A DNA stretch of 64,000 bases from Owenia fusiformis (lineage: Eukaryota > Annelida > Polychaeta > Sabellida > Oweniidae), in assembly GCA_903813345.2 (NCBI GenBank), contig CAIIXF020000005.1, positions 24,617,375 to 24,681,374 of the forward strand. The letters run 5' to 3'. Positions 1 through 53,800 of this stretch are shown here, one piece after another; position 1 is the stretch's first letter; each line of letters opens with the position of its first letter. A model generated the notes under the pieces. That model saw only the letters and a program-made list of their open reading frames with translations. It was not told the origin of the DNA and did not search any database. The translations under genes were made by a program, and so were the position numbers.

Positions 1-420
1 TGAGAAGGTCATTGAAGGTCAAATGTCAAATCTAAAGTCAGATTTGAAGGTCAAATGTCAAATCTTAAGTCAGATTTGAATTTCTGAGAACACGTAGATG
101 ATTTTGAAAAAAAAATTTAGTCAATTTGAAGCAAGTTGAAAACAGACCTTTTTGACCTTTTTTGACCTTGAGAAGGTCATTGAAGGTCAAATGTCAAATC
201 TAAAGTCAGATTTGAAGGTCAAATGTCAAATCTTAAGTCAGATTTGAATTTCTGAGAACATGTAGATGATTTTGAAAAAAATTTAGTCAATGTGAAGCAA
301 GTTGAAAAAAGACCTTTTTGACCTTGAGAAGGTCATTGAAGGTCAAATGTCAAATCTAAAGTCAGATTTGAACTTCTGAGAACATGTAGATGATTTAGAA
401 AAAAATTGAAGTCAGTCTAA
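1..420 (+). repeat. Tandem array, ~156-168 bp units (about 2.6 copies)
   Basis: Units begin at 1, 169 and 325, each with GAGAAGGTCATTGAAGGTCA; the third is shortened. Each contains short internal duplications of AGGTCAAATGTCAAATC and ends with TTTTTGACCTTGA, so AGGTCA/TGACCT words recur. The segment CAGATTTGAACTTCTGAGAA is shared with the tandem units at 35640-36480, linking this array to that element. It leads directly into the microsatellite and hairpin at 421-585, so it is probably the internal array of one element whose 5' end lies before the window. Confidence 0.92.
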
Positions 421-585
421 ACAGTATTTGTTAAGTTATAGGAAGTTGTAAGAAATTGTTACAGACGCCGGACGCCAACCGCCGGACGCCGGACGCCAAC
501 CACCAACCGCCAACCACCAACCGCCGTCGCAAAAAAAACGGAGACCATAACAATATGTCACCACTTTTGGTGGTGACATAAAAAT
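421..585 (+). mobile_element. 3' end of 'GTCACCAC' element: CGGACGCCAACC microsatellite plus terminal hairpin
   Basis: GTTACAGACGCC leads into a GC-rich block of CGGACGCC and AACCGCC/ACC words (463-525). A perfect hairpin follows, TGTCACCAC at 556-564 and GTGGTGACA at 570-578, then the tail ATAAAAAT (578-585). The same order (CACCACC start, GTTACAGAC, CGGAGAC, GTGGTGACATAAAAAT end) appears in short copies at 6892-7000 and 34899-35023. There is no coding capacity. This copy differs from the short ones in having a long tandem array upstream. Confidence 0.75.
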
Positions 586-1074
586 GTTCTACTGCATGTA
601 AACTAATTATGACAACAAATAAAATCATATATGCATCCGAGGTATAATGAAAGAGGTTTTTAAGCCATTTTATGAATGTTAATTGACTTCCATTCAATTC
701 AAGTTTTACAATTTCCTGAATATTGTGTTCATTTTGATAATTACAATATGTGCCTGTGATAATCATTCTTAAAAACAATATAAGCTTAAATTGGATAAAT
801 ATTTTCCAGCAATGTTAGTGAAACATCCTGTGACAAACACAATTATACAAGTATATCTATTGCTCTAGGTTCATCACATTGTCATATTGTGAGGGATAAA
901 CATCACCTCTGTTTATCTTGTAGACTAACTTATTAAATTTTAGAGTACCTTCTTATACCCTAAGTCAGATTATGATTTGACATCTAATTAATTCTATAAC
1001 ATAAAACAGCTTAGGTGCCATAATCTTAAAGATCAAGACATTATCAGGTGCTACACATTGAAATTAAAATAACC
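586..1074. other. No recognised feature
   Basis: AT-rich sequence with no convincing open frame, RNA gene or repeat. Confidence 0.5.
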
Positions 1075-1279
1075 TTATGCTACCACACTACTTCTTGTGA
1101 TTGGCAAGAAAATGAGCACATTTAAACTGAATATGCTACCACTCTACTTCTTTAAGTACATGATATTCTTGTGATTGGCAAGAAAATGGGCACGTTTAAA
1201 CTGTATATGCTACCACTCTACTTCTTTAAGTACATGATATTCTTGTGATTGGCAAGAAAATGAGCACATTTAAACTGAA
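1075..1279 (+). repeat. 74-bp tandem duplication, 2.7 copies
   Basis: Two nearly identical 74-bp units start at 1131 and 1205 (GCTACCACTCTACTTC, then TTGTGATTGGCAAG). A preceding copy at about 1075-1130 lacks the internal TTTAAGTACATGATATT segment, perhaps a deletion between the short flanking CTTCTT and ATTCTT sequences. Units two and three differ at only a few positions, so the last duplication is recent. Confidence 0.9.
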
Positions 1280-2157
1280 TATTGATAACTAGGAAATGAC
1301 AACCTCATGGTGCTCATCCCAATAAGGACAAAAATAAAACATTCTTAAAAAAAAGAATATCAAATTGAATGGCATCAATAAGTTAAGTATGTCAGGTATA
1401 TGAAAAGATAAAAAAGTATAAAGTTTACATCAAAGCCAACAAAAAGTTCAATGTCCAATGTCCTGTTTCTAAGAACTCCTATTCTTACTATTGAAAATGG
1501 ATTCTAGCAATACTTTCCGACATGAATCTACGTTTTAGTAAGAATGGGGTTTCTTAAACTGGACATAAGATTAATTAAGGCCTTTTCGATTAAGGCGTAA
1601 TTTTTGGTTAGTACTAAATGGTTGTCACGATGATGAGAGAAAGACGTCAGAAAATATGCTCCAAGTACATTGATTACAAATAAATAGTTTGGGATGATGA
1701 CTATATACCTTATATCAACATGTTTACTGGGAATCATTCTCAGACGAAGACATCAATATAAGTGTTAGATCAGTCCTTTAAGGATTAAAGTATTCACAAT
1801 ATCATTTATCAGGCCATACCAAGTAAATATATTGTACTGTGTGTTTATTTGGTCAAGAAGATATAGGGTCTGTAGATGGAGACATTTTATTACTGAAACA
1901 ATTGAGAACACAGATACAAACAAGCTCAATTAATGTCTATCATAAATGACATGTCTATCATAAATGATTCCAAACAAATAACTCTTGAACAGGCTGTTAA
2001 AAATAATTCATAGAATAATGTATCTATAATACCAAAAAAAATGATACAAAAAATAACACTTTTCTTCACATTAAATTTACATTGTATATGGTGCATTCTA
2101 AGCATTTTTAACTATACATATTATTTTTTAATGTTTTTTTTCAACAAATGTTAAAAA
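1280..2157. other. No recognised feature
   Basis: AT-rich DNA; short open frames here show no motifs. A small ACATGTCTATCATAAATGA direct duplication lies near 1933-1967. Confidence 0.45.
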
Positions 2158-2164
2158 ATTGCTT

Positions 2165-2190
2165 TGTTGTGTGTGTGTGTGGGGGGGGGT
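2165..2190 (+). repeat. (GT)n followed by a G run
   Basis: A short run of GT dinucleotides leads into about ten G residues. Simple sequence. Confidence 0.9.
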
Positions 2191-2857
2191 GCACCTATCA
2201 CACCCCAAGAAAGATAGTGAAAATATATGATTGGGAATACTATAAAGGACGGGTGTCATTAAGAGCCCTTTTTAGCCCCCAAAGATATCTGATAATAATG
2301 CATATCATATTGAAAAAAAATCATTTGTGCTTTATAAAAATACAATTTCAGCGAATTTTGACCTTTGATGTTCACACAACAGTCATTTAAAGATCATATA
2401 CCATTTTTGGTGTTTTTACAAAAAATTCTTTATTTATTGTTGTCTAAGTCAATAGTATGTAAATATTAACCAATTTAAATATATTAAAATGTAATATATG
2501 AAATACTGAAGAAAAGATACAATTAAAATTATTTTCATGGAAAGCACATAGGGCAATATTGACAAAATGCAAATGCTATTTTGGTAGGTTCTGGGCTAGC
2601 AATGGGTACATTTCAACTGTGACTGTAATGGATTACTATTGACTTTTATCAACATCACAGGGCAATATTTAAGCAACTTAAATACAAGGAAAATCAAAGA
2701 TTTCCTCTCATTTCTAAAACGAGGAACAAAAGCATGAATTCAAGGAAAATAAATGATGGCCTGTGCCAATTATATAACATATGAGAAAGTTGTGGCACAG
2801 TAAAGGATATGTATAGGATATCATATGATTTTTAATTATTTTATCTTTATCTCCGAG
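2191..2857. other. No recognised feature
   Basis: AT-rich sequence with no supported gene or repeat. Confidence 0.45.
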
Positions 2858-2914
2858 TTGATATCAATATATTGCCAAGTTAGCATAGCGAATTAGCGCA
2901 GATATTGATATCAA
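2858..2914. repeat. Inverted repeat with 13-bp arms
   Basis: TTGATATCAATAT at 2858-2870 faces ATATTGATATCAA at 2902-2914 across a 31-bp spacer that includes GCGAATTAGCGC. Each arm contains a GATATC palindrome. It may be part of a decayed TIR element together with the palindrome at 3102-3142, since GATATC words recur in both. Confidence 0.75.
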
Positions 2915-3101
2915 TGAGTTGGATTAACACAATATCACGAAAATGCATAGGATGTTCTATTTTTTCCCATAGTTCACCTCTAAAACTAAACAAAGCATAT
3001 CAAAACAACATCCATTCATTCATTCATCCCCGTGATGTCATGAAATCACGATGTAACAAAACACATCATATTGGTGGTAGTTTTCAAATCCCTGCCAAAA
3101 G

Positions 3102-3142
3102 GTGATATCTGTGAAATATTTTCCATATTCCACAGATATCAC
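3102..3142. repeat. Palindrome with perfect 12-bp arms
   Basis: GTGATATCTGTG (3102-3113) and CACAGATATCAC (3131-3142) flank a short AT-rich loop that is itself partly complementary. Flanking AAAGG and CTTTTT continue the symmetry imperfectly. It could be a small foldback MITE or one end of a larger element. Confidence 0.75.
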
Positions 3143-4820
3143 TTTTTCCACGCATTTGCAAAACATCATAAATATGTTTTTATGTTACCTAACAGAGCGG
3201 AACAGAGTTCAACTATAGGATAAAGAATAAAAAATAGGTACATAATTGAATTACCACTCCAAAAATATTAAATATGAGGGTTTAAAGAAAGAATATTGAA
3301 TATGAGATTCAAAAAGACAAGTGGCCTCATGTCTCACGTTACCCAAACCCCAGATCCTTGATGTCATATATACTTGTATACTGTATATCAATGTTATGTA
3401 CTGGGAGGATTAAATATGGAGTGTATAGCAATGGTCAATACGATATTTCCAGATGGATATTTTTCCCTAGAAGCGGAACCCAAACTCAGTCATGACATAG
3501 AAGCTAACTTTTGCAATTAATAGAAACTTGTTTTTTATTATATTTTTGTGTTCTATATTTGAGATGAAATAATATGAGATTCATTTCTACAAGAGGATGG
3601 AACGAATGTGAACTTGTATATTGAACTATACTCCTTTTCTGATTAAACAGAACAACATTTTATCCAAGCCAATTAAGAAAACCAAGGCCAATGAGGGTAA
3701 TTTATGCCCAGTTAAACTAACACAATAACAACTTTTTGTCTGGACTCACTTATTATGTAAGAATGAATTGTATTACTGTTTACTGCATTAAATGTCAAGT
3801 ATACTATCTGTATTTAATTTCAAATGCCTATCTCACTTATCGAAGGTATACAAGAAATGTTATTTTGAAACAAATTCAGCACAACCAAAACCATGTCCAC
3901 ATAATATGACAAATCCAAGATGGCTGCCACAATTTTAGATCCATGCACATATGAAGAAGTTAGAAATACACATGGTCCACAAGTTCCATCCCTAATAAAA
4001 TGGGAAGTTTAAGGTTTTCACACATATCAACTCTATTCCTATATACTTTATATTTGTGGTAAGGCTTGTGATCTAGGTAAACTTAGCATGTTCATGTACC
4101 TCCTATCTTCTGAAGCTAAAAACGGAAATAGTGACTTCAATTGAGAAAAATGAATCTTATGGGCTCCATATACATTTTGAGTTGCTGTCCGGCTTAAGTT
4201 AGATACTACTGATAATCTGAGATTGAAAATTATGTCAAGTTTAGTCCTCAGCCTCTCATAACGGATAACTTCGAGGTAATTGTGTTGTTACTGCAAAAAC
4301 CTCTATTTCTTCATCACAAATCTACCATCTTTTGCATCTGTCAAAACCCCTCATTTCATTATAATTTTCAGACTTTTGCTTGTGCCATCATTAAATATAT
4401 ATATTCAACTTGTTATTCAGAATATTTTAAGAACTTTTCATGAATTTTTTTATTTTCACACTTTTGAAAAAATGACTAAGTCAGAGAATGGCCTCTTAAT
4501 GGCATGTCCCCTTTGAATATCTTTTGAATGATTGAAATATGGTGATGTTTTTCTCAAGTTCTAACTCCAAAAGCGGACACCATTTACAAATTAAAGTGTC
4601 GAAAGAATTATTGATTTGACGTCAAACTTAGATTAGAATAATCTAAAGGGATCAAATGGACAAAATAAGATTCAGCATATTTGATCTATATACCAGTAGG
4701 AAGATTTATAGACTATTTTGAGGTTAATCTCTATTGACGAGCTTAAAGTTTGAATATTACACATTAATCTTACATGGACATGGAACCAACAAAAAATGGA
4801 GTCAACCCTTAAGAAAAAAG
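3143..4820. other. Mostly unannotated DNA
   Basis: No convincing gene. The stretch 3890-4030 has AAGATGGCTGCCA and a CCTAATAAAATGGGA word reminiscent of the ATGGC-rich dispersed repeats elsewhere in the window, but the match is too weak to delimit. Confidence 0.35.
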
Positions 4821-6629: not shown

Positions 6630-6891
6630 TTATAGGAAATAAAGAATCAAAACAAAATCAATGCAAGTATCTTAACCATGACATGAAGTAATAAAAAGCT
6701 CCTACAGGCCACAAATAATTTGTTGGTTAATCAAAGTTTCATATGGTTCTAAAAGGTTTTAGTAGTTTTGTTTAGCAAATATTGATGGGGATGAATGAAA
6801 GAAAACTCATCAGAAAGCAATTATAATGACTCAATAATTTGTTGCTCTTAATATATACCTGGCACAACAAAAGCAATGATTAACATGCCAA

Positions 6892-7000
6892 ATGTCACCA
6901 CCTGCCATTTGTTACAGACTCCAACCACCAACTTTCAAATGCTGAATACTATCCACAAAAAGTCGGAGACTATAACAACTTGTTGTGGTGACATAAAAAT
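6892..7000 (+). mobile_element. Short 'GTCACCAC' family copy (109 bp)
   Basis: Starts TGTCACCACCTGCC, contains GTTACAGACTCCAACC, and ends GTGGTGACATAAAAAT, so the first nine bases are the inverted complement of the sequence just before the tail. It lacks the tandem array of the copy at 1-585. The 3' hairpin's left arm has decayed to CAACTTGTT here. Confidence 0.8.
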
Positions 7001-12056: not shown

Positions 12057-12089
12057 TATATGGAAATTTAACCATGGGAGAATGAAACA

Positions 12090-12804
12090 ACTAGACAACA
12101 GCAAGGCCAAAGCGTAGAAAATCCCATCGAACAGCCATGGCTGGCATTTTTACAAACAAAGTATATAGCAAAAATGGCAGCCATTTTTCAGAATGGCCAC
12201 CTTCTACCAAAAGTGTCATTAGACAGTGTGCCATGCTTATAGTATTCACATACCAAATATGAACAAAATCGCTCCACTACTTTTTGAGTTATAGTAAAAT
12301 AAGTTAAAATGGCGGCCATTTTTCAAAATGGCCACCTTCTACCAAAAGTTTCATTAGACAGTGTGCCATGCCCATAGTATTCACATACCAAATATGAACA
12401 AAATCGCTCCACTTCTTTTCGAGTTAGAGCAAAAATTGTAAAATAATGAGTAAAGTCCGCCATTTTCAAGATGGCTGCCATGTGCGCTTCTTTAATATCT
12501 ACATTTCGAGCTTTATTAATGTCCTATATAATTTTTTTACATTTAAAACATATTGCTATTACAGTTTTACATATTGCACCTAAATTACTGTAAAATCGGC
12601 ACTAGAATGGCCGCCATTTTTAAATGAGTGGCCATTTTGAAAATCGGCTTTCGAGCAGAACTTCTATCCCCAGAGGGTATATGTGTACAAAATATGAACA
12701 AAATCGGGCAAACGGTATTTGAGTTATTGCCCAGATGGACGGTAGGATGAACGTACATACGGACGGAGGCGTTCCCTATATCCCTCTTCGTTCGATGGGA
12801 TAAT
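12090..12804 (+). mobile_element. GGCGTTCCC tandem-repeat family, copy 1
   Basis: 5' part: CTAGACAACAGCAAGGCC and ATCCCATCGAAC. Then tandem units of about 120 bp containing AAAATGGCGGCCATTTTT and GTGTCATTAGACAGTGTGCC. Next is the family 3' module (TTACTGTAAAATCGGCAC, GAGCAGAACTTCTA, GAACAAAATCGGGC), a degraded ACGG microsatellite, GGCGTTCCCTATATCCCTC, and the end CGTTCGATGGGATAAT. The 5' ATCCCATCGAAC is the inverse of GTTCGATGGGAT at the 3' end. No coding frame. Confidence 0.93.
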
Positions 12805-18878: not shown

Positions 18879-18887
18879 TTAAAAAAA

Positions 18888-20212: not shown

Positions 20213-22157
20213 TTTTTTTTTTTTTTTTTTTTTTATATATATATTTATTTATTTATATTATATAGAAAGTACAATATAGTGCTGCGGCTAGGCTTAAAGC
20301 ATTATTAGCCACATATAGAATACTTATATAAGGGGTAAACATAAAAATTGTAAGCCTAAATGGTAAAAGGCTTAAACTGCCTGGGGTCTTTCGAAACACT
20401 GTCTGATAAACAGAGCACTGGATGCAAGTATTTCATGGTTCTTACTAGGAGAAAGAGATTGGTGACCAAAGAGAAATAAGTCAAGTTTATCTTGTCTATT
20501 TTTGCATAATTGCCTGTAGTTCGGAAGTAAATCAAAAAGCTTCTGTTCAAAGCTTATGTAGAATGGTTGTCTAATGGGACAAGAAAATATTACATGTTTT
20601 GTTGTTTCACTTTTGTCACCACATATACATTCAGGTGAATTTACATTGACAAAGTTATGGGCATGAAGGTGAGCATTAAATATGAGGTCAACTCTTATTC
20701 TATTCAAATATATCTCGTCAGCCCTATTTATGCCCAACTCTGAGGCCAATATAATATCATTATTCAAGAACACTTGACTAATATTATTCTTAAAAGTCTT
20801 GATTGTATCACAGTTTCTAATCATGGAGCTCAATCCGTTGAACTCAGTCATGCACAAGAAGGTGGGAGATCTAGAGCGTATTCTTGAGCGACGTAGTGGA
20901 ACTTGAAAGGGTATTACATTACGAATATCTCTGATATTTGGCTTTTTGTATTTGTCAAAAATTGTTGAAACATAATGAGGTACATTTCCATGTTGCACTT
21001 TGAACATAAATGTAAGTCTATGTATCTTTCTACGAATCTCCAATGTTGGCCAATTCAATACATGAAACAGTTTAGTAGACGAGGTTCCAGCAATTGTACC
21101 TGCACATATTGTTGCAGCTTTATAATAAAGCCTATCTAGACACTTCAGAGTTGTTAGGTTTGCACATCCGTACATGATATCATATAAATCAAAATGAGGC
21201 AAAATATAAGAGTTGAACATAAGCTTTAGATGTTTACCACCCAATTTTCTTGATAGACTTTTCAAGTGGTTTAGCAACTTATCAATTTTATTAGCTGATT
21301 GGATAATATGTGGTTCAAAGGTAAGCTGGCTATCAAAAACTAAACCAAGATGCTTGTGGTTATTTACCTTTGGAATAATGTCATCACCCAAAGACAAAGA
21401 AGGAGTAAGCAATTCTGCTTTCCTAGGGTCAAAGAAATTTAACTCAGCACTTTTACTCGCTTTGAACTTTAATTTCCATTTGTCAGACCAATTGTAAATT
21501 GCATCTAGATCATTTTGTAATTCAGTCATCTTTATATCTATATCATCTGCTTGAAATGGCTGGTAGATGGACGTATCGTCCGCATAGAGATAACATCTAG
21601 AGTCAATATGGTCAGTAATGTCATTGATATATATAAGAAAAAGAAGAGGGCCTAATATTGATCCTTGAGGGACTCCAGAGTTGATGTAACTTTCTTTTGA
21701 CCATTCAGAACTTTGACCATCGATGACAACTTTGACCCTGCGATTAGTTAAGTATGATCTCAACAAAGAGCATACATCAGGACCGAAACCATAACTAGGA
21801 AGTTTATTCAAAAGAAGGTTGTGAGGAATTGTGTCAAATGCGGCCGAGATGTCCAAAAATGCGGCTTTTACATTAAATCCTGCATCTAGATGCTCAGTCA
21901 AGTAATCAATTATTGTCAGTAACTGAAATTGAGTACTGTGGCCAGGTAAAAACCCACTTTGTAGATTATATAATAAATTCTGATCCACAAGAAATTTAAA
22001 AACCTTATTAAATATGATTCTCTCAGTAACTTTTGAAAGACAGCTTAAAAGTGTAATTGGCCTATAATTTGATGGAGTATTTTTGTCACTTTTCTTATGA
22101 ATAGGAACAATATTACCAAGTTTCCAGCATTGAGGGAAACAGTTTGTCGCAAAAAAA
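20213..22157 (-). mobile_element. 5'-truncated non-LTR retrotransposon (LINE) with poly(A) and target duplication
   Basis: On the minus strand the insert begins inside the reverse transcriptase frame at about 22157 and ends in an AT-rich 3' UTR with a poly(A) tail (T run at about 20213-20234). ATACCTCCTT occurs on both sides (20205-20214 and 22157-22166), a 9-10 bp target-site duplication. The endonuclease and start of the ORF are absent, as in ordinary incomplete target-primed insertions. The remaining frame is open throughout, suggesting a fairly young copy. Confidence 0.95.
20372..22156 (-). CDS. LINE reverse transcriptase, C-terminal 594 residues (partial)
   Basis: This is the reverse transcriptase and C-terminal part of a LINE ORF2, which copies its own RNA into chromosomal nicks. 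The frame is open from the truncation point. In order: GNIVPIHKK and NYRPITLLS (fingers), LQSGFLPGHST, motif A AFLDISAAFD, SGVPQGSILGPLLF (motif B), the catalytic YADD at about residues 191-194 from the truncation, and KHLGLVFDSQLTF. A C-terminal CxC-x8-H-x4-C knuckle (CICG...HVIFSC) follows, and the frame ends ERPQAV. Apurinic endonuclease domain and start codon are missing because of 5' truncation. The motifs fit the CR1/Jockey group; the clade is not certain. No internal stop was found. It cannot retrotranspose autonomously as it stands. Confidence 0.95.
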   Translation of the reverse strand, partial: FFATNCFPQCWKLGNIVPIHKKSDKNTPSNYRPITLLSCLSKVTERIIFNKVFKFLVDQNLLYNLQSGFLPGHSTQFQLLTIIDYLTEHLDAGFNVKAAFLDISAAFDTIPHNLLLNKLPSYGFGPDVCSLLRSYLTNRRVKVVIDGQSSEWSKESYINSGVPQGSILGPLLFLIYINDITDHIDSRCYLYADDTSIYQPFQADDIDIKMTELQNDLDAIYNWSDKWKLKFKASKSAELNFFDPRKAELLTPSLSLGDDIIPKVNNHKHLGLVFDSQLTFEPHIIQSANKIDKLLNHLKSLSRKLGGKHLKLMFNSYILPHFDLYDIMYGCANLTTLKCLDRLYYKAATICAGTIAGTSSTKLFHVLNWPTLEIRRKIHRLTFMFKVQHGNVPHYVSTIFDKYKKPNIRDIRNVIPFQVPLRRSRIRSRSPTFLCMTEFNGLSSMIRNCDTIKTFKNNISQVFLNNDIILASELGINRADEIYLNRIRVDLIFNAHLHAHNFVNVNSPECICGDKSETTKHVIFSCPIRQPFYISFEQKLFDLLPNYRQLCKNRQDKLDLFLFGHQSLSPSKNHEILASSALFIRQCFERPQAV

Positions 22158-22165: not shown

Positions 22166-22972
22166 TATTACTACTAAAATAGTCTATAACACAATAGCAT
22201 ATAACACGGCACCATTAGCATATTAGAGGCACCACAATTTATCTTACACTTTTGGATACAAAAGCTGGTTTTGACAGCTGCTGGATTAAAGAAAGTGGGG
22301 AATAAGCCTGAATAATGGACAACTCACACGAAAACTGCTGTTCAGTTTGAGCAGTCTTTCAGAGAGATTCCATGTCCAACAGGGAGAATATCTGGAAGTG
22401 CTCAACATCTTTTCTCTCATTTTTTAATTTTTACATATATGCACTTTATTAAAGCAACATACATCCCAGCACCATGAGTGCACTTCTCAACATGTCATTC
22501 AAGCAAACCACCGAATGGCATTACATACTACAAATACAAAGTATATATATTTCGCTGAAAACACATTTTTAAATGTTTGATATCTTCAAGCTGAACACTA
22601 GTCACAAAAATCTTAACAAAAGAGTAAGTCCTAAGTCAGTTCTTCATACAATATATTAGCACTTTCATTACTTATGATTATTTGCAACATTGACAAGAAT
22701 GCTTCAGCAAATTGAATGAATATATCAAGAACTAAATCATAAACAGGTCATATAACTTGTTGCATAATGGTATCACATTCTTGCTTTGTATTGTGATTTG
22801 TGAAAGACTAAAGCTGAAAGATACATTTATATCTGAACTCCCTTTAGATTAAGCTTCAGGCAGATAACATGATAACATCCTTCAAGATCAGGGTTAGCTG
22901 AAAAGATTAGTGAAATACCATTAGACAAATGCAGAGCAGTCTTTCTTTGGAGCCATAATTCATAACTAGACA
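22166..22972. other. No recognised feature
   Basis: AT-rich DNA; no supported gene or repeat. Confidence 0.4.
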
Positions 22973-23842
22973 ACAGCAACGCCAAAGCGTAGCAAATCCC
23001 ATCGAACAGCCATGGCTGGCATTCTAAGAAACAAATATAATATAGTAAAAATCGTAAAATAGTATATAATAAATGGCCACCATTTTCAAAATGGCCGCCT
23101 ACTCCCCAGTGTCATTAGACAGTGTGCCATGCTTATAGTAATCACATACCAAATATGAACAAAATCAGTCCACTACCTTTCGAGTTATAGTAAAAAACGT
23201 AAAAATGGGGGTCATTTTTCCAAATGGCCACCTACTACCAAAAGTGTCATTAGACAGTGTGCCATGCTTATAGAATTCACATAGCAAATATGAACAAAAT
23301 CGCTCCACTACTTTAAGAGTTACAGCAAATATCGCAAAATAGCGTGGAAATTCTACTACCCAAAGTGTCATTCGACAGTGTGCCATGCTTATAGTATTTA
23401 AATATCAAATATAAACAAAATCGCTCTTCTACTTTTCGAGTTAAAGTAAAAAATGTAAAAATGGCGGCCATTTTTCAAAAGTGTCATTAGACAGTGTGCC
23501 ATGCTTATAGTATTCACATAGCAAATATGAACAAAATCGCTCCACTGCTTTTAGAGTTACAACAAATATCGCAAAATAGCGTGAAGGTCTCCATTAAAAA
23601 CATATTGCTATTACAGTTTCACATATTGTACCTAAATTACTGTAAAATTGGCACAAAAATGGCTGCCATTTTGAAACGAGTGGCCATTTTGAAAATTGGC
23701 CTTTTGAGCAGAACGTGTACCCCCATAGAGCATATGTGTACAAAATATGAACAAAATCGGTATTTGAGTTATCGCCTGGACAGACGGACGGGCGGACGAA
23801 GGTGTTCCCTATATCCCTCTGAACTTCGTTCGATGGGATAAT
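22973..23842 (+). mobile_element. GGCGTTCCC family, copy 2
   Basis: 5' start TAACTAGACAACAGCAACGC then ATCCCATCGAAC. About four or five units contain GTCATT(A/C)GACAGTGTGCC, several with deletions. The 3' module has a shortened microsatellite (GGACAGACGGACGGGCGGAC), then a slightly altered GTGTTCCC in place of GGCGTTCCC, and ends GTTCGATGGGATAAT. Short open frames on both strands follow the repeat and are not genes. Confidence 0.92.
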
Positions 23843-25040: not shown

Positions 25041-25836
25041 CTATGTAAATGCAATCAAAAGTTCCCATGAACTCAAAATGAAGACAAAACAAGTTAGAAA
25101 CCCATCAATTATAAAAATCCTTACAGGTATTCTCTGCATATCACTAAAGCTTTATGGAGAGCTTCCTGGAAGCCGTTTTTGCAATTGCAACAGATTTGAT
25201 TTCTACTTCATGACTCACTATTTCCATCTAAATCATTCAAAGAACTTGAAGACACCTTTGATTTTGTTCAGGTTACATAAACGAGAACAGGATCTGTGAT
25301 TGTAAGGAAGATTATCCATCATGCTTGAAGTCTGACTGAATGAGTTTCAACAGTGCATGATTGTTTCATACATTATTGAAGTGCAAATGCATCACTCTCA
25401 GAAAAATAATAACATGACAGGGTCTTGAATTAATCCAGCCAATCCTGTATAAAAGTTCACTGGGGTTTGTATATCAAATGACAACATGAGATATGATGTA
25501 GACAATTTGTAGAAAAATGAGAAATAATCTGGCATATAAGACCAATGGATCATTTGAGCATTTGACATGTACCATAAAAACATTGATCATACATTTATAA
25601 GTCATAATGCATGATCATATTTTAAAATGGGAAATAATTCCATGTTATGGATTGTTCAGTGATTGTGCAATGAAAGAAATAACCATGCAAGTGTCTCAGT
25701 AAAATACATCATGGTTGTAATGCTTCTAGACTGTTTCTGAAGCAATGAAGCATTGGCATTTATGCAAAATAAACCAATCACATAGTCATATATTAAAGCA
25801 GGCATCGCTCATATCGTTGGTGATACAATCTTAAAA
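25041..25836. other. No recognised feature
   Basis: AT-rich DNA; no supported gene or repeat. Confidence 0.4.
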
Positions 25837-26951
25837 ACCAGAACAACGGCAACGCCAAAGCGTAGCGAATCCCATCGAACAGAAATGGTTGGCATTTTTA
25901 CAAACAAAATATATAGCAAATATCGTAAAATAACATTCATAAGAAAGGCCACCATTTTCAAAATTGTTGCTCACTAGCCAAGTTGTCATCAGAAGAAGTA
26001 ATATGCTTTTAAGTAGCCACATATAAAAAAAATTTAAAATCGCACACACATACATGTAAATTCTGGCCATTTTTTAAAATGGCCACCTACTACCCAAAAT
26101 GTCATAAGACAGTATGCAATCCTTACAAGTATTCACATATCAAATATGAACAAAATTGCTCTATTACTTTTTGAAGTATAATAAAAAAAATGTAAAATAA
26201 CACACATAAAAATGGCTGACTACTCCCGAAAGATTTATTAGACAATGTGCCATGCTTAAAGTATTCACATATCAAATATGAACAAAATCGCTCCAATACT
26301 TTTCGAGTTATAGTAAAAAATGTAAAAAAATGACAGCCATTTTTTAAAATGACAACCTACTATGCAAAGTGTCATGAGACAGTGTGCAAGGTTCATAAGT
26401 ATTCACATACCAAATATGAACAAAATCGCTCCACTACTTTTCAAGTTATAGTAAAAAACGTAAAAGATGGTGGCCATTTTTCAAAATGGCCGTCTACTAC
26501 CCAAAGTGTCATTAGACAGTATGCCATGCTTATAGTATTCACATATAAAATATGAACAAAATCGCTCTTCTAATTTTTGAGTTATAGTAAAAAATGTAAA
26601 ATAACAAAAGTAATAAAAAGGGTGGCCATTTTGAAAAATGTCCTATATAACTTTTTTACATTTAAAACATATTGCTATTACAGTTTTATGGCAGTACCTA
26701 AATTACTGTAAAATCGACACTAAAATGGCCGCCATTTTTAAATGAGCGGCCATTTTGAAAATCAGTTTTCGAGCAGAACTCCTACCCCCATTGGGTATAT
26801 GTGTACACAATATGAACAAAATCGGGCCAACGGTATTTGAGCTATTGCCCGGACGGACAGACGAACGGATGGACAGACAGACGGATGGACAGATGGACGG
26901 ACGGATGGAGGCGTTCCCTATATCCCTCCGAACTTTGTTCGATGGGATAAT
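25837..26951 (+). mobile_element. GGCGTTCCC family, copy 3
   Basis: 5' start ACCAGAACAACGGCAACGCC then GCGTAGCGAATCCCATCGAA. Five diverged tandem units, each with a GTCAT...GACAGT(G/A)TGC core and AACAAAATCGCTC. The 3' module and an ACGG/ATGG microsatellite (about 26850-26910) precede GGCGTTCCCTATATCCCTCC and the end GTTCGATGGGATAAT. It is more diverged between units than the 42357 copy and so probably older. Confidence 0.93.
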
Positions 26952-32414: not shown

Positions 32415-33700
32415 CAGATAAAAAGTTTTGCATGTTTATCCAGAACAGATAATACCCAACAACAATTAAAATGGTTTTGCATGTTTAATCAGAACAGATA
32501 AAACCCAACAATAAGTAAAATGGTTTTGCATGTTTAACCAGAGCAGATAATATCCAACAATAAGTAAAATGGTTTTGCATGTTTAACCAGAACAGATAAT
32601 ACCCAACAATAAGTAAAATGGTTTTGCATGTTTAACCAGAACAGATAATACCCAACAATAAGTAAAATGGTTTTGCATATTTAACCAGAACAGATAATAC
32701 CCAACAATAAGTAAAATGGTTTTGCATATTTAACCAGAACAGATAATACCCAACAATAAGTAAAATGGTTTTGCATATTTAACCAGAACAGATAATACCC
32801 AACAATAAGTAAAATGGTTTTGCATGTTTAACCAGAACAGATAATACCCAACAATAAGTAAAATGGTTTTGCATGTTTAACCAGAACAGATAATACCCAA
32901 CAATAAGTAAAATGGTTTTGCATGTTTAACCAGAACAGATAATACCCAACAATAAGTAAAATGGTTTTGCATATTTAACCAGAACAGATAATACCCAACA
33001 ATAAGTAAAATGGTTTTGCATGTTTAACCAGAACAGATAATACCCAACAATAAGTAAAATGGTTTTGCATATTTAACCAGAACAGATAATACCCAACAAT
33101 AAGTAAAATGGTTTTGCATATTTAACCAGAACAGATAATACCCAACAATAAGTAAAATGGTTTTGCATGTTTAACCAGAACAGATAATACCCAACAATAA
33201 GTAAAATGGTTTTGCATATTTAACCAGAACAGATAAAACCCAACAATAAGTAAAATGGTTTTGCATGTTTAACCAGAACAGATAATACCCAACAATAAGT
33301 AAAATGGTTTTGCATGTTTAACCAGAGCAGATAATATCCAACAATAAGTAAAATGGTTTTGCATGTTTAACCAGAACAGATAATACCCAACAATAAGTAA
33401 AATGGTTTTGCATGTTTAACCAGAACAGATAATACCCAACAATAAGTAAAATGGTTTTGCATGTTTAACAAGAACAGATAATACCCAACAATAAGTAAAA
33501 TGGTTTTGCATGTTTAACCAGAGCAGATAATATCCAACAATAAGTAAAATGGTTTTGCATGTTTAACCAGAACAGATAATACCCAACAATAAGTAAAATG
33601 GTTTTGCATGTTTAACCAGAACAGATAATATCGAACAAAAAAGTAAAATGGTTTTGCATATTTAACCAGAACAGATTATATGTAAGTCAAAGTCAAAAGT
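32415..33700 (+). repeat. 49-bp satellite-like array, ~26 units
   Basis: The unit ends in AAAATGGTTTTGCAT(G/A)TTTA, then ACCAGAACAGATAATACC and CAACAATAAGT. Spacing is 49 bp throughout, with about 26 copies and a decayed last copy near 33700. Units fall into GCATG and GCATA types in short runs; a linked double variant (GAGCAG with ATATCC) appears in units 3, 19 and 23. Low divergence implies recent unequal exchange. There are no unique spacers, so it is not CRISPR-like, and 49 bp is far below nucleosome length. Confidence 0.97.
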
Positions 33701-34133: not shown

Positions 34134-34898
34134 ATGGCACTTGTCCATTGTCTCACAATGAGAACTGCCTAAAATAGGACCTTAAAAAGTAATGAAACTT
34201 CGATGTACACAAGAACATAATGATAATGTGTCTTCAGCAGATTGTAGTCACAGCAGTAATTTCTCAGGAAACAGCTTAGACTAAGTAAGGTATAATTTGA
34301 TTACTTTGAAGGAGTTTTGATGAGTCAAAGGGTGCTATAACTAGCTTAATGCATGAACGTGCGGATGTTTACTTTCTGTATCCTTTCTGTATTTGATTGA
34401 TCATATTATACAAGGTAAGGCAGTATTTTCTGGAGATTACCAGATTAAGAGATAGCTTGAATAGATATGGTTGAAAATTGATGATATTTCTAATCTTCAC
34501 CTGATCCCCAAAGCCTTCATAGTAGAACTTCAAAGAAATCTAAGAAGATAAACAACATTTGCTTCTATTGCCTATCTGGGTCCATCTCATAAGATTCTCA
34601 CTAAATTGTCCATATATTTAATTTTGTTAAGTGAGTAGGTGCTAAAAATGTTATTTTGTTCACTAAAAGTGTAATTTTTTTTAAATACAGGAGTTTCTAG
34701 ATATCTATAAACTTTTTATCTATAAACTGAAGTGTGGAAATTCTGGGATGACCCCTCAATTCCTATAAGTTCTGTTTAAAAGTGCTCTGTCTGGACTGTG
34801 TTTTAAAATGTTAGAGAAAATAAATTTTGAAAGGTAAAATCCATCAGGCATTGCATTGGTTATTATATATAATCTAAAAAGGCATTAATGTACAGAAT
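34134..34898. other. No recognised feature
   Basis: AT-rich DNA; no supported gene or repeat. Confidence 0.4.
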
Positions 34899-35023
34899 TT
34901 CACCACCTGCTACTTGTTAAAGGCGCCAATCGCAAAACACAAAACACCAGCCACTGAACACCTTCCACAAAAAAGTTGGAGACTATACCAATATGTCACC
35001 ACCAGATGTGGTGACACAAAAAT
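34899..35023 (+). mobile_element. Short 'GTCACCAC' family copy with intact 3' hairpin
   Basis: Starts TTTCACCACCTGC, has GTTAAAGGCGCC, then TTGGAGACTATACCAATA. The 3' hairpin is TGTCACCAC(C) facing GTGGTGACA around a short loop, and the tail is CACAAAAAT. Together with 6892-7000 it defines both ends of this family. Confidence 0.8.
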
Positions 35024-35304
35024 GGTAAAATTCCAAGCAATCATAAATTATTGCAAGCAATAGAACTCATAAAGCACTCATGAAATAGCATCTGATGGAT
35101 CAATATTGAATGCAGGTGGAATCCTTCAGTAACGCTTCATGATAAACCATGTCCTCCCTTCTCAAGTCTTCTTGGGCCATGAAATCGTGAGGTAGCAGTG
35201 GCGGATCCAGAAGCTAACAAAGGGGGCCCAAATTTTAAGTCAGTAAAGAATTTTCTAGAAAAAAGTTTGGGCCCCCTTAAACCAACAAGACACACAGTGA
35301 TAAA

Positions 35305-37528
35305 TATCGCACTTTGAAGAGCAAACTGGCCACCATGCAATTTACCCAGCATGGCCAAAACCTAATCAGACCTTGGCACTAGTCTGCTCTTGCATCTGTA
35401 AACATTTCAAGTTGACAAGGTTAGCAGTTTTCCTGCAATTTTGATGACAAGAATTTATTTGTAGTCTTGAACTTTGGGAAAATTTAGATAACATTGTTTG
35501 TGACCTAATTTGATGACCTTCGACCTTGAAAATTTCACTTTTTCAGACCTCAGTAGGTGTTTTGTAATTAAGCTGACCTAAATTTAAATCCAAAACATCA
35601 ATTCAGAAAATCAACTTTTTGACCTTTTCAAGGTCACTGAAGGTGAACGAAAGGTGAATTCTGAAATCTAAGGTCAGATTTGAACTTCTGAGAACTTGTA
35701 GATGTTTTAAAAAAAAAATTTGGTCAATTTGGAGCAAGTTGAAAGATTCAAAATGGCCACCATGTAATTCAGCCAGCATACCCAAAACCTAATCAGATCT
35801 TGGCAATAGTCTGCTCTTGCATCTGTAAAAATTTCAAGTTGAACGGATAAGTGGTTTTCCTGGAATTTTGATGACAAGATTTGTTGAAAAATTCAAAATG
35901 GCCACCACGTAGTTTACCCAGCATGCCCTAAACCTAATCAGATCTTGGCACTAGTCTGCTATTGCATGTGTAAAAATTTCAAGTTGAACAGGTTAGCGGT
36001 TTTCTTGGAATTTTGATGACAAGAATTGATTTGTAGTCTCAAACTTTGAGAAACTTGGATAACATCATTTGTGACCTAGTTTAATGACCTTGACCTTCGA
36101 CCTTGAAAATTTCACTTTTTCAGACCTCAGTAGGTGTTTTGTAATTCAGCTGACCTAAATTTAAATTCAAAATATCAATTTAGAAAATCAACTTTTTTGA
36201 ACTTTTCAAGGTCACTGAAGGTGAATGAAAGGTCAAATCTGTGACCTAGTTTAATGACCTTGACCTTTGACCTTGAAAATTTCACTTTTTCAGACCTCAG
36301 TAGGTGTTTTGTAATTAAGCTGACCTAAATTTAAATCCAAAATATCAATTTAGAAAATCAACTTTTTTGACCTTTTCAAGGTCACTGAAGGTGAACGAAA
36401 GGTGAAATCTGAAATCTAAGGTCAGATTTGAACTTCTGAGAACTTGTAGATGTTTTTAAAAAAAAAATTTGGTCAATTTGGAGCAAGTTGAAAAATTCAA
36501 AATGGCCGCCAAATTGAAAAATTCAAAATGGCCACCATGTAATTCAGCCAGCATACCCAAAACCTAATCAGATCTTGGCAATAGTCTGCTCTTGCATCTG
36601 TAAAAATTCAAGTTGAACGGATAAGTGGTTTTCCTGGAATTTTGATGACAAGATTTGTTGAAAAATTCAAAATGGCCACCACGTAGTTTACCCAGCATGC
36701 CCTTAACCTAATCAGATCTTGGTACTAGTCTGCTCTTGCATCTGTAAAAATTTCAAGTTGAACAGGTAAGCAGTTATCCTGGGGGTCATTAACAGAACTT
36801 TCGTAAAGTTACGAATTCGCAAGTCAATTGTTAATTTTACGAATTTGGTAAATGTGCATTAACAGAACTTTCGTAAAGTTACGAACGATTCGCAAAGTTA
36901 CGAAAAAATGACGTCACGTATGCTTTCATTCGTAACTTTAATAGCACCTCAGACCCTTTCATAACTTTGCGAATGGCACATTTCTCATCCAATTCTTATG
37001 TAAGGTATACAGGTTGGCAAAAAGAAATTGTTCTCTATATGCATGCTGAGTTTCAAGCTAAAATATCTACCTATTCTTACATGATAAGCAAATATGTTCC
37101 TGAGCTGGGAATCTTTGAAATCGCGGAGACAGGTTTGATCACAGCGCGCAATGATATCAAATGACATCATATTTTTATTTGTGCTAAATAATGATATAAG
37201 ATGACGTCACAATTTGAAATTCGTTTACGAACGATAAAACTTATGAATGACTTACGAAAGTGTTCTGTTAATGGCCGATTCATAACTTTATGAATTCGTA
37301 AATCATTCGTAACTTTTTAAATATTTACAAATTTCGTAAAGTTACGAATTACGAATTCGTAACTTTGCCAAAGTTCTGTTAATGACCCCCTGGAAATTTG
37401 ATGACAAGATTTGGTTTATGTGCCAAACCGCCCACACGCCCGCACGCCCGCCCGTAAGCCCGCCCGTAAGCCCGCCCAACAGCACAAGACGACGACAATA
37501 TAGCACTTTTTCAAAGTGCGATAAAAAT
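35305..37528 (+). mobile_element. Tandem-repeat element with TATCGCACTTTGAA ends, inserted in the outer MITE
   Basis: 5' TATCGCACTTTGAA (35305-35318) is the inverse of TTCAAAGTGCGATA (37510-37523). The 3' end forms a hairpin of GCACTTT and AAAGTGC and is followed by ATAAAAAT. Inside alternate two modules. One is AAAATGGCCACCATGTAATT with CTAATCAGATCTTGGCA and TCTGCTCTTGCATCTG. The other is TGACCTTGACCTT, CAGACCTCAGTAGGTGTTTT and CAGATTTGAACTTCTGAGAA. A CCCGCCCGTAAGCCCGCC tract (37430-37485) precedes the hairpin. A MITE at 36783-37388 interrupts it. Non-coding. Confidence 0.85.
36783..37388. mobile_element. 606-bp TIR MITE with CCTGG duplication, nested
   Basis: Ends GGGTCATTAACAGAACTTT and its inverse match over about 35 bp, through GTAAAGTTACGAATTCG. 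CCTGG flanks both sides (36778-36782, 37389-37393). The same host sequence without insert (TTTTCCTGGAATTTTGATGA) occurs near 35857 and 36640, proving the insertion point. A second inner inverted pair (CATTAACAGAACTTTCGTAA near 36856; the inverse near 37256) repeats the tip. Two short opposing frames in the middle are not genes. Confidence 0.94.
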
Positions 37529-42356: not shown

Positions 42357-43672
42357 AACCAGAACAACGGCAACGCCAAAGCGTAGCGAATCCCATCGAA
42401 CATTTTTCAAAAGGGGCACCTTCTACCAAAAGTGTCATTAGACAGTGTGCCATGCTTATAATATTCACATACTAAATATGAACAAAATCGCTCTACTACT
42501 TTTCGAGTTATAGTAAAATACGTTAAAATGGTGGCCATTTTGAAAAATGGCCGCCTTCTACTAAAAGTCTCATTAGACAGTGTGCCATGCTTATAGTATT
42601 CACATACCAAATATGAACAAAATCGCTCCACTACTTTTCGAGTTATAGTAAAATACGTTAAAATGGCGGCCATTTTGAAAAATGGCCGCCTTCTACCAAA
42701 AGTGTCATTAGACAGTATGCCATGCTTATACGTATTCACGTACCAAATATGAACAAAATCGCTCCACTACTTTTCGAGTTATAGTAAAATAAGTTAAAAT
42801 GGCAGCCATTTTTCAAAATGTTCACCATTTTTCAAAATGGCCGCCTTCTACCAAAAGTGTCATTAGACAGTGTGCCATGCTTACAGTATTCACATACCAA
42901 ATATGAACAAAATCGCTCCACTACTTTTCGAGTTATAGTAAAATATGTTAAAATGGCGGCCATTTTGAAAAATGACAGCCCTCTACCAAAAGTGTCATTA
43001 GACAGTGTGCCATGCTTATACGTATTCACATACCAAATATGAACAAAATCGCTCCACTACTTTTCGAGTTTTAGTAAAATAAGTTAAAATGGCGGCCATT
43101 TTTCAAAATGTCCGCCATTTTTCAAAATGGCCGCCTTCTACCAAAAGTGTCATTAGACAGTGTGCCATGCTTATAGTATTCACATACCAAATATGAACAA
43201 AATCGCTCCACTACTTTTCGAGTTACAGCAAAAATCGTAAAATAACGAGAAAAGGCCGCCATTTTTCAAGATGGCTGCCATGTGCTTTTTTAATATCTAC
43301 ATTTCTAGCTTTATTAATGTCCTATATAATTTTTTTTACATTTGAAACATACTGCTATTACAGTTTTACATATTGCTCCTAAATTACTGTAAAATCGGCA
43401 CTAAAATGGCCGCCATTTTTAAATGAGCGGCCATTTTGAAAATCCGCTTTCGAGCAGAACTTCTACCCCCATAGGGTATATGTATACAAAATATCACTAA
43501 AATCGGGCCAATGGTATTTGAGTTATTGCCCGGACGGACGGACGGACGGACGGACGTACGGACGGACGTACGTACGGATGGACGGACGTACGTACGGACG
43601 GACGTACGTACGGACGGACGGACGGACGGAGGCGTTCCCTATATCCCTCCGAACTTCGTTCGATGGGATAAT
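42357..43672 (+). mobile_element. GGCGTTCCC family, copy 4 (largest, best preserved)
   Basis: 5' AACCAGAACAACGGCAACGC and GCGTAGCGAATCCCATCGAA. Six tandem units of 135-156 bp contain GTGTCATTAGACAGTGTGCC and GAACAAAATCGCTCCACTAC, alternately with one or two ATGGCGGCCATTTT blocks. The 3' module follows, then the ACGG/ACGT microsatellite (43531-43630), GGCGTTCCCTATATCCCTCC, hairpin CGAAC-TTC-GTTCG and the end ATGGGATAAT. Units are very similar, so array growth is recent. Frames of 65-110 codons crossing it are repeat artefacts. Confidence 0.95.
43531..43631 (+). repeat. (ACGG)n/(ACGTACGG)n microsatellite
   Basis: About 100 bp of GGAC units interrupted by GTAC, near the 3' end of copy 4. The same position holds shorter or degraded tracts in copies 1-3, so the microsatellite belongs to the element. 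Confidence 0.95.
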
Positions 43673-44190: not shown

Positions 44191-44194
44191 TTAA

Positions 44195-44641: not shown

Positions 44642-44645
44642 TTAA

Positions 44646-48306: not shown

Positions 48307-48361
48307 TGTATGAGTCTTGGACTAAAATTCTTTTCACATTGCAAAATATTTCATATTATAT

Positions 48362-50216: not shown

Positions 50217-50740
50217 CTAGAAAACAGCAACTCCAAGGAGTACCAAATCCCACCTAACAAATATATTTAAGCAAATCACTCACCATCTTGAACATAACAT
50301 GATACCAAATAAGCAAGAAATAGTAGAAGACTATAATAATAGAGAAACATTGTCTCCTTCTTGGCATTTTGACTTTATCAGCCACATTGAAAATTGAAAT
50401 GAGCAGCCTTCTTGAGTTAAAGTTCTATTCCCTTAAAAAATCAGCCTATAAATTCGGACAAAATCTGATAAAATCAAATGATCACATTTCCACAAAAAGG
50501 TAGACATTTTAAATTCACTGACTTAATCTTTAAGATTCTTTCCATGATTAATACTTTTTGACCCAAAGCATCAGCCTATAAAATTTAAACCAAACCTGAC
50601 AGCTGTTATTTGAGTTATCAAAGATTATATTTGTTATGACAGATGGCAGCCATTTTGAATTGAGCAGCCATGTTGGATATTCCTTCTTCTCTTCAAGTCC
50701 TGTGCCCATAAGCTATAAGCAACCTATCATATGATGGTCA
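50217..50740 (+). mobile_element. Old relative of the GGCGTTCCC family
   Basis: Start AACTAGAAAACAGCAACTCC then CCAAATCCCACC parallels the family 5' start, and ACTCC-AA-GGAGT forms a short hairpin. Inside, ATCAGCCTATAAA recurs twice, with GGCAGCCATTTTGAATTGAG and AAGTCCTGTGCCCATAAGC. No microsatellite or terminal motif survives. Related fragments lie at 58990 and 61850. Confidence 0.65.
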
Positions 50741-52022
50741 CAAGGTCATGATGATATACGAAGTTGTTAAATGATATGAAGCAAGGAAACCAAATCCTCC
50801 ATCCTAAGATGATGCAATAACAGTAAATATGATGAATAAATTGCAATTCAAATCATGTGTCTGTCCTCCTCTGGTGATCCATTAGAGCCTAATTGATGGG
50901 TAGAACAAAACCCACAGTAAGCAAATTTTGATGCATTCATAATTTAGAGTCATTCATCATCATGGAACCTTCCTCTCTGAATGATGGATGTAGAAGTATT
51001 CAGGGAATAATAAGATAAACCCAAGACAAAATATTCCTAATGCGGCTCACTGTACGGCATGACCAGCTAATTCAAGAATAAGAACAATCCGATAAAAAAC
51101 ATAAGTATCACTGGTTCATTGGTCTAATAGTTGTATAATCTGTAAGCTGTCTGACAGCTGTTCTGTATCAATGATTGTTGGACTTCCAATTTGTGATAAA
51201 AGCAAATCAAGAGACATTTTCAACCCAGATGTTTACAAAGACATTTCGTGATGTAATTTGATTGATTTCTGTGTGGTATCCTATGAGAGGTTATAACACA
51301 CCATCGGTAAACTTAACCAAAATATCTTTTATTTTGTCCCTGTAGTGTTTAGGGCAATAACACCAAAACCCCTCAAGTCAACTTAGCTGATGGAAAATAC
51401 TCTTTTAGGTTGAAGGTTTGACCAAGTTCTGGATGACATGTCAAGCTGGTAGAGCCATCATTCAAGTCAAGTCAACATCCTGTTTTAACGACTTATTTAT
51501 GTTTTGACCCTACCTGTATAAGTTTTGAATGGAGCATTGATTAATGCCATTAATATGTTCATAAGATTTACTATAATTATAATTTTTTTTGAATATTTGC
51601 ATTTTTCAGTAATTATACTATACATTTTATTTTTGGCTTATGGCCTGTAGTAGAACAGGAAATATAAAATTTGAAGCAATTTCCTAAATTGCAGATATAA
51701 ATCTAATGTCAACAAGTAAAGTTGATTAATACAAACTTCAAAAAAACATTTCATTACATTTAACTGGAGGCTTTAATATGCAATAATAGTGCTGTTAAAG
51801 AGATGTTATGATTGCAATTATGACAAATAGATGCACAGAGTAGGGGATGATGAAAAATTGACATGATTGACAATTATTCATAATTCCTCAGAAAACCATC
51901 TTTCGCATGATCAATTTGACTTTTAAATGAACAATTCCAAATTCAATTATTGTCCTAAGGATCTAGGAATCAATAACATTTCAAGTATAACTAGACTTTG
52001 GAAATTGAACAAGTTCAATTTC
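50741..52022. other. No recognised feature
   Basis: AT-rich DNA; no supported gene. Confidence 0.45.
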
Positions 52023-53800
52023 AGACTCCAGATTAAGACCTTTTTTAGCCGAGTCATCCAGAATAAGCCGAGTCATCCAGAATAAGCCGAGTCATCCAAA
52101 AAAGATGGATGAATAAAATAGGAAGGTAGGATAGGATAGGATAGAATAGGAAGGAACGATAGGATAGAATAAGAAAGAAGGATAGGATAGAATAAGAAGA
52201 AAGGATATGATAGGATAGGATAGGAAGGAAAAGACACGAAGGAAGGATAGATAGGAAGGATAGGATCAGATAGGAAGGATGGATGAATTTTTCAACATTT
52301 TCTTCTCTACTCTTGACTTTCTATCAGGATACCATCAGATCGATTTCAAAACACCATAACTTCCAAACCGGCAGTCAGATCCAAATTTGAATTGCAGATT
52401 CGGATTCCTGACAAAATTCTACACCTAATTCTACCCCTAATTCATAACTCATACGTTAAATTTGGAGATTTTTTTATTTTGACCTACTTTTCGGACACCA
52501 TATCTCAAAAGGGGGTCAAAATACTTTCTGACGCCAAAAGGCTAACACTTTTAGCACACTCTTGACTACATGTATACACAATTTCGAAGAATATAATTGA
52601 AGTATAGTGTCAGAAACGCAAAAATAAGGAAAACCTTTGAATTTGACCTAGATTTTGACCTAGGCATTTTGGTGTCCAAATTTTGAAACTAACTGGCTTT
52701 TGAGGTCCACTTCTTTTGAAGGCTTTCATTAAATTAAGCTGAACTCAGTCTATATTTCGTATTTCTCACTTCAAAAAAATCGTTTTTCCCATTGACTTAA
52801 CATGGGCACCAAATTTAGCGATTTTTGAGCTTTTAAAACGCCATAACTTCCGAACCGGATGTGATCGAAATTTGGTTTGCAGATTCGGATTCCTGAAAAA
52901 TTTCTACCCCTAATTGATAACTCATACCTTGAATTTGGAGAACTTTTTATTTTGACATACTTTCTGGACGCCATATTTCAAAATTGGTAAGAATAATCAA
53001 AAAACGGATGGCACACACATGAAAGGGCTGTTATTAAGCTACATGATGAAAAAAAGATGAAGACGTTTCGATAAATAACGATGAAGATAATAGACAGAAG
53101 GTTGAAAATGTAAGATTTGACCCAGTTCTAGGATAGGATAGGATATAGAATAGGAAAGAAGGATAGGATAGGAAGGAAAGGATAGGAAGGATAGATAGGA
53201 AGGATATGATCAGACAGGATAGGAAGGAAGGATGGATGATTTTTTCTATATTTTCTTAACTACTCTTGACTTTCTATAAGGATATCATCAGATCGATTTT
53301 TCTCGAAATTTCAAAACGCCATAACTTTCGAACTGGAAGTCGGATCGAAATTTGGTTTGCAGATTCGGATTCCTGAGTAAATTCTACCCTTAATTCATAA
53401 CTCAGATGTTAAATTTGGAGAACTCCTTATTTTGACCTACTTTCTGGACGCCATATTTCAAAATCGGTAAGCGTAATCAAAAATCTAATGTCATATCTTT
53501 GGTTTGGCTTTTTCTAAGCTACATGATGAAAAAAAGATTTTGGAGTTACGATAAACAACGACGAAGATAAATGACAGAATGTTGAAAATGTAAGATTTGA
53601 CCTAGTTCTTGACCTTTGACCTAGATAAAAATTTGACCCAATTTCCGAGGAACTAGATACTGGACATACACTGACTGAATAATGATCTTTATTGGAAATC
53701 TTATGGTTATCGAGAAAACTGGGAAAGAAAAATAATAAAGAATAAAGAATACTGACGAAAACAATAGACTCCAGATTTACATCTGGAGTCTAATAAAAAT
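52023..53800 (+). mobile_element. AGGAT-rich tandem element with AGACTCCAGAT ends
   Basis: 5' AGACTCCAGAT (52023-52033) recurs at 53766-53776, where it pairs with ATCTGGAGTCT (53781-53791) in a perfect hairpin with loop TTAC; the tail is AATAAAAAT. Inside: three AAGCCGAGTCATCCA repeats (52055-52098), AGGAT microsatellites (52115-52280 and 53130-53235), and three copies of a module of up to 330 bp (GCAGATTCGGATTCCTGA, TTTGGAGA, CTTTCTGGACGCCATATTTC, CAAAACGCCATAACTT). No coding frame. Confidence 0.85.

Follow-up and report, generated by a model that had tools for sequence, protein, structure and literature searches.

What kind of mobile element lies behind the four repeat families that recur across a 64,000-nucleotide (nt) stretch of the genome of the annelid Owenia fusiformis, and does a single enzyme move them all? 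The stretch, referred to here as the window, is C5:24617375-24681374 of a 498-Mb assembly of 525 contigs, which are labelled C1, C4, C5 and so on. The four families, numbered 1 to 4, are very probably Helentron-associated interspersed elements (HINEs), non-autonomous relatives of the endonuclease-bearing rolling-circle transposons called Helentrons. This identity had been proposed in a sequence-only reading of the window, and it is now supported by the anatomy of the ends, by copies across the genome and by a partner for family 4 that carries the candidate enzymes. The families are thus of a known kind and mostly ordinary, the odd point being a tandemly repeated terminal hairpin in family 3.

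All four families are present at the places where the sequence-only reading had put them, and they are real dispersed high-copy repeats. Their right-end strings occur genome-wide far above a reversed-pattern control, with 1,230 matches against 0 for family 1 (GTGGTGACATAAAAAT), 151 against 1 for family 2 (AAAGTGCGATAAAAAT), 742 against 0 for family 3 (ATCTGGAGTCTAATAAAAAT, with at most one mismatch) and at least 1,461 against 0 for family 4 (CTTCGTTCGATGGGATAAT); because the tail string was preselected in the family 1 and family 2 counts, those counts show the tail to be common, not fixed. Internal tandem repeats and short-word tracts are likewise confirmed, as in the CGGA tract of the last family 4 copy in Table 1. 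The description of the families as unlike in sequence is not borne out in full: families 1 and 2 have a stretch of central repeats in common, 76-88% identical over about 94-113 nt, and so are not wholly unrelated. An Rfam search of the window gave no matches at the gathering score.

Read on the strand of the window, the elements follow a single plan, and its subterminal repeats, hairpins and ends recur in the genome copies. On the left stands an A-C(A/T/C)AG end, mostly followed by a small palindrome and then by a subterminal inverted repeat (subTIR); on the right the inverse of that repeat forms a hairpin, which is followed by TAA. The inverse motif at the right end had been recognized correctly from the sequence, but the start motifs had been taken for the first bases of the elements. 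Each named start motif is the subTIR, and outside it, at a distance of 21-34 nt, comes the conserved left end, with ACAAG in families 1 and 2 and AACTAG or AACCAG in families 3 and 4. For family 2, a left-side similarity search in which 40 of 1,891 candidates were scored gave matches that, the window's own aside, start at query position 21-30, mostly 29-30, corresponding to about window 35283-35284, and all 7 copies fetched change from unique flank to AACAAGACACACAGTG 21 nt outside the named motif. The family 1 left end at window 34877 lies 22 nt outside its named motif. In 15 of 38 scanned family 1 loci a left end was found near ACAAGGCATTAACATGC, the base before it varying, and 8 of these 15 start with ACAAGG (3 of the 8 being the same nested copy), all of them having been picked by a motif with up to six changes, so that their conservation is partly preselected. 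The family 1 copy that had been placed at 1-585 has its real start outside the window.

In family 3 the window copy carries AACTAGAC at 51989, 34 nt outside the subTIR, followed by a palindrome with 10-nt arms, and by its sequence this is probably the left end. Family 4 copies start with AACTAGACAACAGC in 6 of 6 fetched cases, and the window copies start with AACTAGAC in two cases and with AACCAGAA in two. The family 4 coordinates given earlier (12090, 22973, 25837 and 42357) come within 0-9 nt of the actual starts at 12089, 22964, 25836 and 42357, but the motif attached to them, ATCCCATCGAAC, lies 32-33 nt inside. Folding of the outer palindromes, done without a shuffle control, gave -2.4, -6.5 and -5.3 kcal/mol for families 1, 3 and 4 and a weak -1.7 kcal/mol for family 2. 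One family 1 copy (loci L004, L045 and L052) is nested in another repeat and was apparently amplified with it, no empty version having been found.

At the right end, the hairpins of families 1 to 4 fold with DNA parameters at -11.4, -6.7, -11.6 and -8.9 kcal/mol, and the subTIRs are about 11-15 nt long with a terminal stem loop at one end, that of family 1 being shorter at about 8-9 nt. After the hairpin only TAA recurs, and some family 1 copies have CAA or GAA instead. A common tail, ATAAAAAT, had been described for the first three families, yet it is not fixed, since everything beyond TAA varies and is partly A-rich target. Of eight family 1 loci that were recovered through similarity and not through the tail, no more than one reads ATAAAAAT, and the remaining tails are ACAAAAAT, AGAAAAAG, ATAACAAG, ATAATAAA, ATAATACA and ACAAAAAC. 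The window copy reported at 34899-35023 also reads ACAAAAAT, not ATAAAAAT; the copy reported at 6892-7000 is located there but has lost the left arm of its hairpin. The family 3 right end occurs at 34 exact places and at 708 with one change, many of the 66 matches listed reading AATAATAAT or AATAAGAAT, and the family 4 tail is ATAAT in the window HINEs and in a Helentron on C4, and ATAAAAAT (ATAAAAATC) in a Helentron on C5, both described below. On its own, ATAAAAAT occurs in the window at the level of chance (20 seen, 20.5 expected). A single superfamily defined by the tail was therefore rejected, the tail being variable, and the argument from a shared tail to one shared enzyme does not stand as it had been stated, for the tail shrinks to TAA plus A-rich target.

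A coding partner was found for family 4. Rep/helicase open reading frames (ORFs) bounded by one of the family motifs, the search for which had been suggested along with the original identification, exist with both family 4 ends on C4 and with the right end on C5. Across the assembly there are 58 matches to PF14214; at C5:30803001-30815000 a Rep ORF matches this domain at 75.5 bits together with DUF6570, with a sub-threshold match to Herpes_teg_N. An overlapping ORF in a different frame, ORF2 (864 codons, 863 amino acids [aa]), matches the PIF1 helicase PF05970 at 96.5 bits and, C-terminal to the helicase, the endonuclease Exo_endo_phos PF03372 at 35.7 bits (residues 679-850). Judged by these predicted domains, the element is a Helentron. 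Its 3' flank runs into the family 4 satellite repeat, a CGGA/CGTA microsatellite and a family 4 right end at 30814153. A protein search revealed a second locus on C4, 93% identical and with 3 stops, and pieces on C8 at 82-93%. The C4 locus likewise runs into a family 4 right end, at 27755601, and upstream, on the same strand, it has a family 4 left end at C4:27741825. The best identities of the window HINEs to these two Helentrons, one at each end, are entered in Table 1. When ten family 4 left ends were compared with that of C4, the 12-nt subTIR was identical in 9 of 10 (the exception being L083) and the terminal 60 nt were more than 80% identical in 9 of 10 (the exception being the window copy at 42357, 46/65), and 8 of 10 copies thus agree on both counts with the rule set out in the available part of PMC4067079. 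On these comparisons a Rep/helicase/endonuclease partner for family 4 is well supported.

Whether this partner, or any one Helentron protein, moves all four families is a different matter, and the earlier proposal that it does so now appears unlikely. The outer ends are alike in the pairs described above and TAA stands at the opposite end throughout, as one enzyme would lead one to expect, yet the subTIRs differ completely between families and family 4 alone is tied to a Helentron. No autonomous partner was found for families 1-3; for family 2, when 100 listed right ends (of 151) were set against 22 Rep matches on C1-C8, even the closest pair stood 435 kb apart. Other matches to the helicase/endonuclease protein of the family 4 Helentron, leaving aside the C4 and C8 loci and three short fragments (47-58%), are 29-35% identical to it, which indicates that several lineages are available and counts against a single enzyme. 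Neither the flanks of two long Helentrons, A (C5) and B (C2), nor those of element D (C6) showed convincing ends when scanned for hairpins and subTIRs. Helentron A and a relative on C38 are about 97% identical for 5.9 kb, and this match runs to the end of the fetched stretch, which points either to element ends beyond that stretch or to a segmental duplication.

Other Helentron-like coding sequences were seen in passing. The unplaced contigs C13, C515, C505 and C158 each have several long ORFs (about 1,200-3,400 aa) with Rep and helicase/endonuclease matches, and a related chromosomal ORF on C5 (L089, L034) also matches OTU and Herpes_teg_N. At C6:27110001-27123000 (L095-L096) a Rep-helicase ORF of 1,873 aa has Herpes_teg_N and DUF6570 matches, and its match to the Helentron helicase/endonuclease query ends at residue 632, before the endonuclease part.

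A further alternative is that family 4 ends adjoin Helentron genes merely through the insertion of a HINE there. The abundance of family 4 right ends (at least 1,461) speaks for such a chance nesting, as do two negative results: no left end of the C5 Helentron turned up in the 623 nt ahead of its first ORF or in 5 kb of upstream sequence, and the 3 kb fetched at the C8 locus contain no family 4 right end and no match to the C5 3' flank. Nesting is nevertheless very improbable, as two loci with unlike outer flanks have a common 3' flank (75.6% identical over 1,490 columns) that leads into a family 4 right end, no family 4 left end was found in between at either of them, and the C4 left end stands on the correct side and strand. 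No family 4 right end was found in C4 from 27741825 to 27748900. The C4 sequence compared stops at 27748900 and resumes after 27753059, and C4 upstream of 27747921 is without a match to C5, so that at least one of the two copies is rearranged there.

The target sites bear on the mode of insertion. With the joined flanks of the window family 2 copy as query and 40 of 1,361 candidates scored, 38 of the 40 matches cross the junction at 72-85% identity, the remaining two being the copy's own flanks. Seven of these empty sites were fetched, one of which has a gap at the junction; the 6 informative ones have 3-5 A between CC-like and TTG-like sequence, and at the filled site the element is flanked by 2 A to the left and 5 A to the right. 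This fits insertion inside a run of A (T on the complementary strand) whose length varies, and a variable number of T at HINE ends is reported in the part of PMC4067079 available. No fixed-length target duplication was detected among 23 copies, although those of family 3 were entered with a left boundary that is probably incorrect (the longest match averaged 2.61, and 2.45 after re-pairing, with 69 of 300 re-pairings as high). Miniature inverted-repeat transposable elements (MITEs), which have terminal inverted repeats (TIRs) and would here be moved by a cut-and-paste transposase with a 2-bp AA/TT duplication, would explain inverted repeats of 8-14 nt at both ends and the AA seen in family 2 and family 4 copies both beside C(A/T)AG on the left and behind GAT on the right (the family 2 right-end strings being preselected), but are a very improbable reading, given that the repeats are placed asymmetrically, being 21-34 nt inside one end and within the terminal hairpin at the other, that the 23 copies give no duplication signal, and that both family 4 ends are common to an element with Rep, helicase and endonuclease.

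Several points weigh against the identification of the four families as HINEs. These include the C5, C8 and C4 results set out above (the left end, the bare flank, and the omitted and rearranged segments) and the lack of a partner for families 1-3. A 2-bp AA duplication is also indistinguishable from A belonging to the element or to the target, and no empty site for the repeat-nested family 1 copy was found among 78 matches, each of which covers one half of the query. The family 3 left end has a single copy behind it, and the family 1 left ends carry the preselection already described.

Comparison with published systems bears on the orientation. In the available parts of PMC4067079, PMC7492417 and PMC5148889, 5' denotes the end that has the terminal hairpin, or a subTIR together with its inverted repeat, and 3' the end whose subTIR lies about 20-60 nt in. 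The hairpin had been called the 3' end, which reverses this convention; by the convention the hairpin end is 5', and it follows that the ORFs of the family 4 Helentron point toward the canonical 5' (hairpin) end. On the canonical strand the 3' ends are CTAGT, CTGGT or CTTGT, and CTAG is given for a proto-Helentron in PMC4067079. Although most of the elements described there differ in this respect, ORFs directed toward the 5', inverted-repeat hairpin end are known from the Drosophila ananassae exception, Helentron-Da-40 (PMC4067079), and from a fish Helentron and an algal Helitron2 (PMC5148889).

Read on the other strand, the elements match the published HINE plan in their 5' inverted-repeat hairpin, in the microsatellite and tandem repeats that follow and in the 3' subTIR, and probably in the palindrome and T-rich target as well. 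As far as the available text of PMC7492417 goes, the Pacific oyster Cg_HINE elements resemble them in having a 5' subTIR with a complementary inverted repeat, satellite-like tandem repeats, a microsatellite (GTCY, GTCC or GTCK in several oyster elements), a 3' subTIR and several families with different cores, and probably also in having a palindrome and a T-rich target without target duplication. That text could not link the oyster HINEs to an autonomous partner, whereas for family 4 a HINE family and its enzyme-coding partner occur in one genome, and no mention was found in it of tandem terminal hairpins such as those of family 3. With DINE-1 and mite HINEs (PMC4067079) the elements have in common subTIRs, a terminal stem loop, ends common to HINE and Helentron, and probably a T-rich target with a variable number of T at the ends. 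With Fusarium FoHeli (PMC5148889, in the part available) they have in common asymmetric terminal inverted repeats, a 5' terminal hairpin and a 3' repeat about 20-50 nt from the end, and FoHeli likewise has reversed ORFs in some groups and composites with two 5' ends; FoHeli, however, is Helitron2-like, not a Helentron, and arrays of 5-6 tandem ends were not found in that source. On the model of such elements, a Helentron Rep/helicase supplied in trans would make a nick between two T of the complementary strand (T|T), at the 5' end with the hairpin, and one strand would be unwound through the tandem-repeat core until unwinding stopped at the subTIR, palindrome and CTAGT/CTTGT (3') end, the choice of starting end being presumed. 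The single strand, or perhaps a circle, would then insert at another T-rich site without a sizeable target duplication.

The family 3 terminal hairpin departs from this plan. The 68 family 3 right ends listed on C1 form 49 clusters, of which 13 bring together 32 ends that have a neighbour no more than 200 nt away, and the same measure gives 0 of 100 for each of families 1 and 4 among the first places listed. At two array loci, picked for being clustered, hairpins spaced 51-69 nt apart (about 50-70) stand in tandem: 6 family 3 terminal hairpins at C1:32779195-32779560 (L113) and 5 at C1:20538225-20538500 (L114), the first of these five being cut by the edge of the stretch. The window copy has a single one. 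Related structures are the self-insertion composites with two 5' ends in PMC5148889 (in the part available) and the tandemization of Helitron segments in PMC12628747; no account of arrays of 5-6 terminal hairpins was recognized among the papers listed in literature searches on tandem Helitron ends. It is conceivable, if rather doubtful, that a family 3 array offers one element a choice of many rolling-circle start points, any of which could launch a copy; a transposon end could then turn directly into a new hairpin satellite. The tandem ends of family 3 are a natural system for testing whether extra initiation ends come into use.

Table 1. HINE copies in the window, with positions, strand, component parts and the evidence for each.
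Feature	Position	Strand	Parts	Basis
Family 1 HINE, long copy	1..581	+	left end outside window; central repeats; GC-rich word tract about 464-527; terminal hairpin about 555-579; TAA end	sequence, tandem repeats, genome copies
Family 1 HINE, short copy	6864..6996	+	left end approximate; terminal hairpin without left arm	sequence
Family 1 HINE, short copy	34877..35019	+	ends GTGGTGACACAA	sequence and genome copies
Family 2 HINE	35284..37524	+	AACAAG left end; subTIR TATCGCACTTTGAA at 35305; central repeats; hairpin TATAGCACTTTTTCAAAGTGCGATA; TAA end	left boundary from genome copies; empty sites
Family 3 HINE	51989..53796	+	AACTAGAC left end; outer palindrome 52001-52022; subTIR AGACTCCAGAT 52023-52033; ATAGG-type microsatellites; terminal hairpin about 53765-53792	sequence and fold; left end probable, from one copy by match to family 4
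Family 4 HINE	12089..12803	+		sequence comparison
Family 4 HINE	22964..23841	+		left 60 nt 59/60 identical to C4 Helentron
Family 4 HINE	25836..26950	+		sequence comparison
Family 4 HINE	42357..43671	+	(CGGA)n, x25, at 43531-43630	right 60 nt 60/60 identical to C5 Helentron

The window holds further repeats and one coding region of a different kind. A TIR element (GGGTCATTAACAGAACTTTCGTAAAGTTACGAA) is nested in the family 2 copy at about 36785-37392, with CCTGG on either side by eye. At about 56122-57490 on the minus strand, a hairpin of ATGACATGAAA and TTTCATGTCAT is followed by AATGATT, and its motif recurs 1.3 kb upstream, which may mark a fifth family. Minisatellites occupy 32425-33680 (49-bp unit, 25.6 copies, 96%) and 54686-55083 (28-bp unit, 14.2 copies, 98%). 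Finally, a 538-aa ORF on the minus strand at 20372-21988 presumably encodes a reverse transcriptase-like protein, by the look of its sequence.

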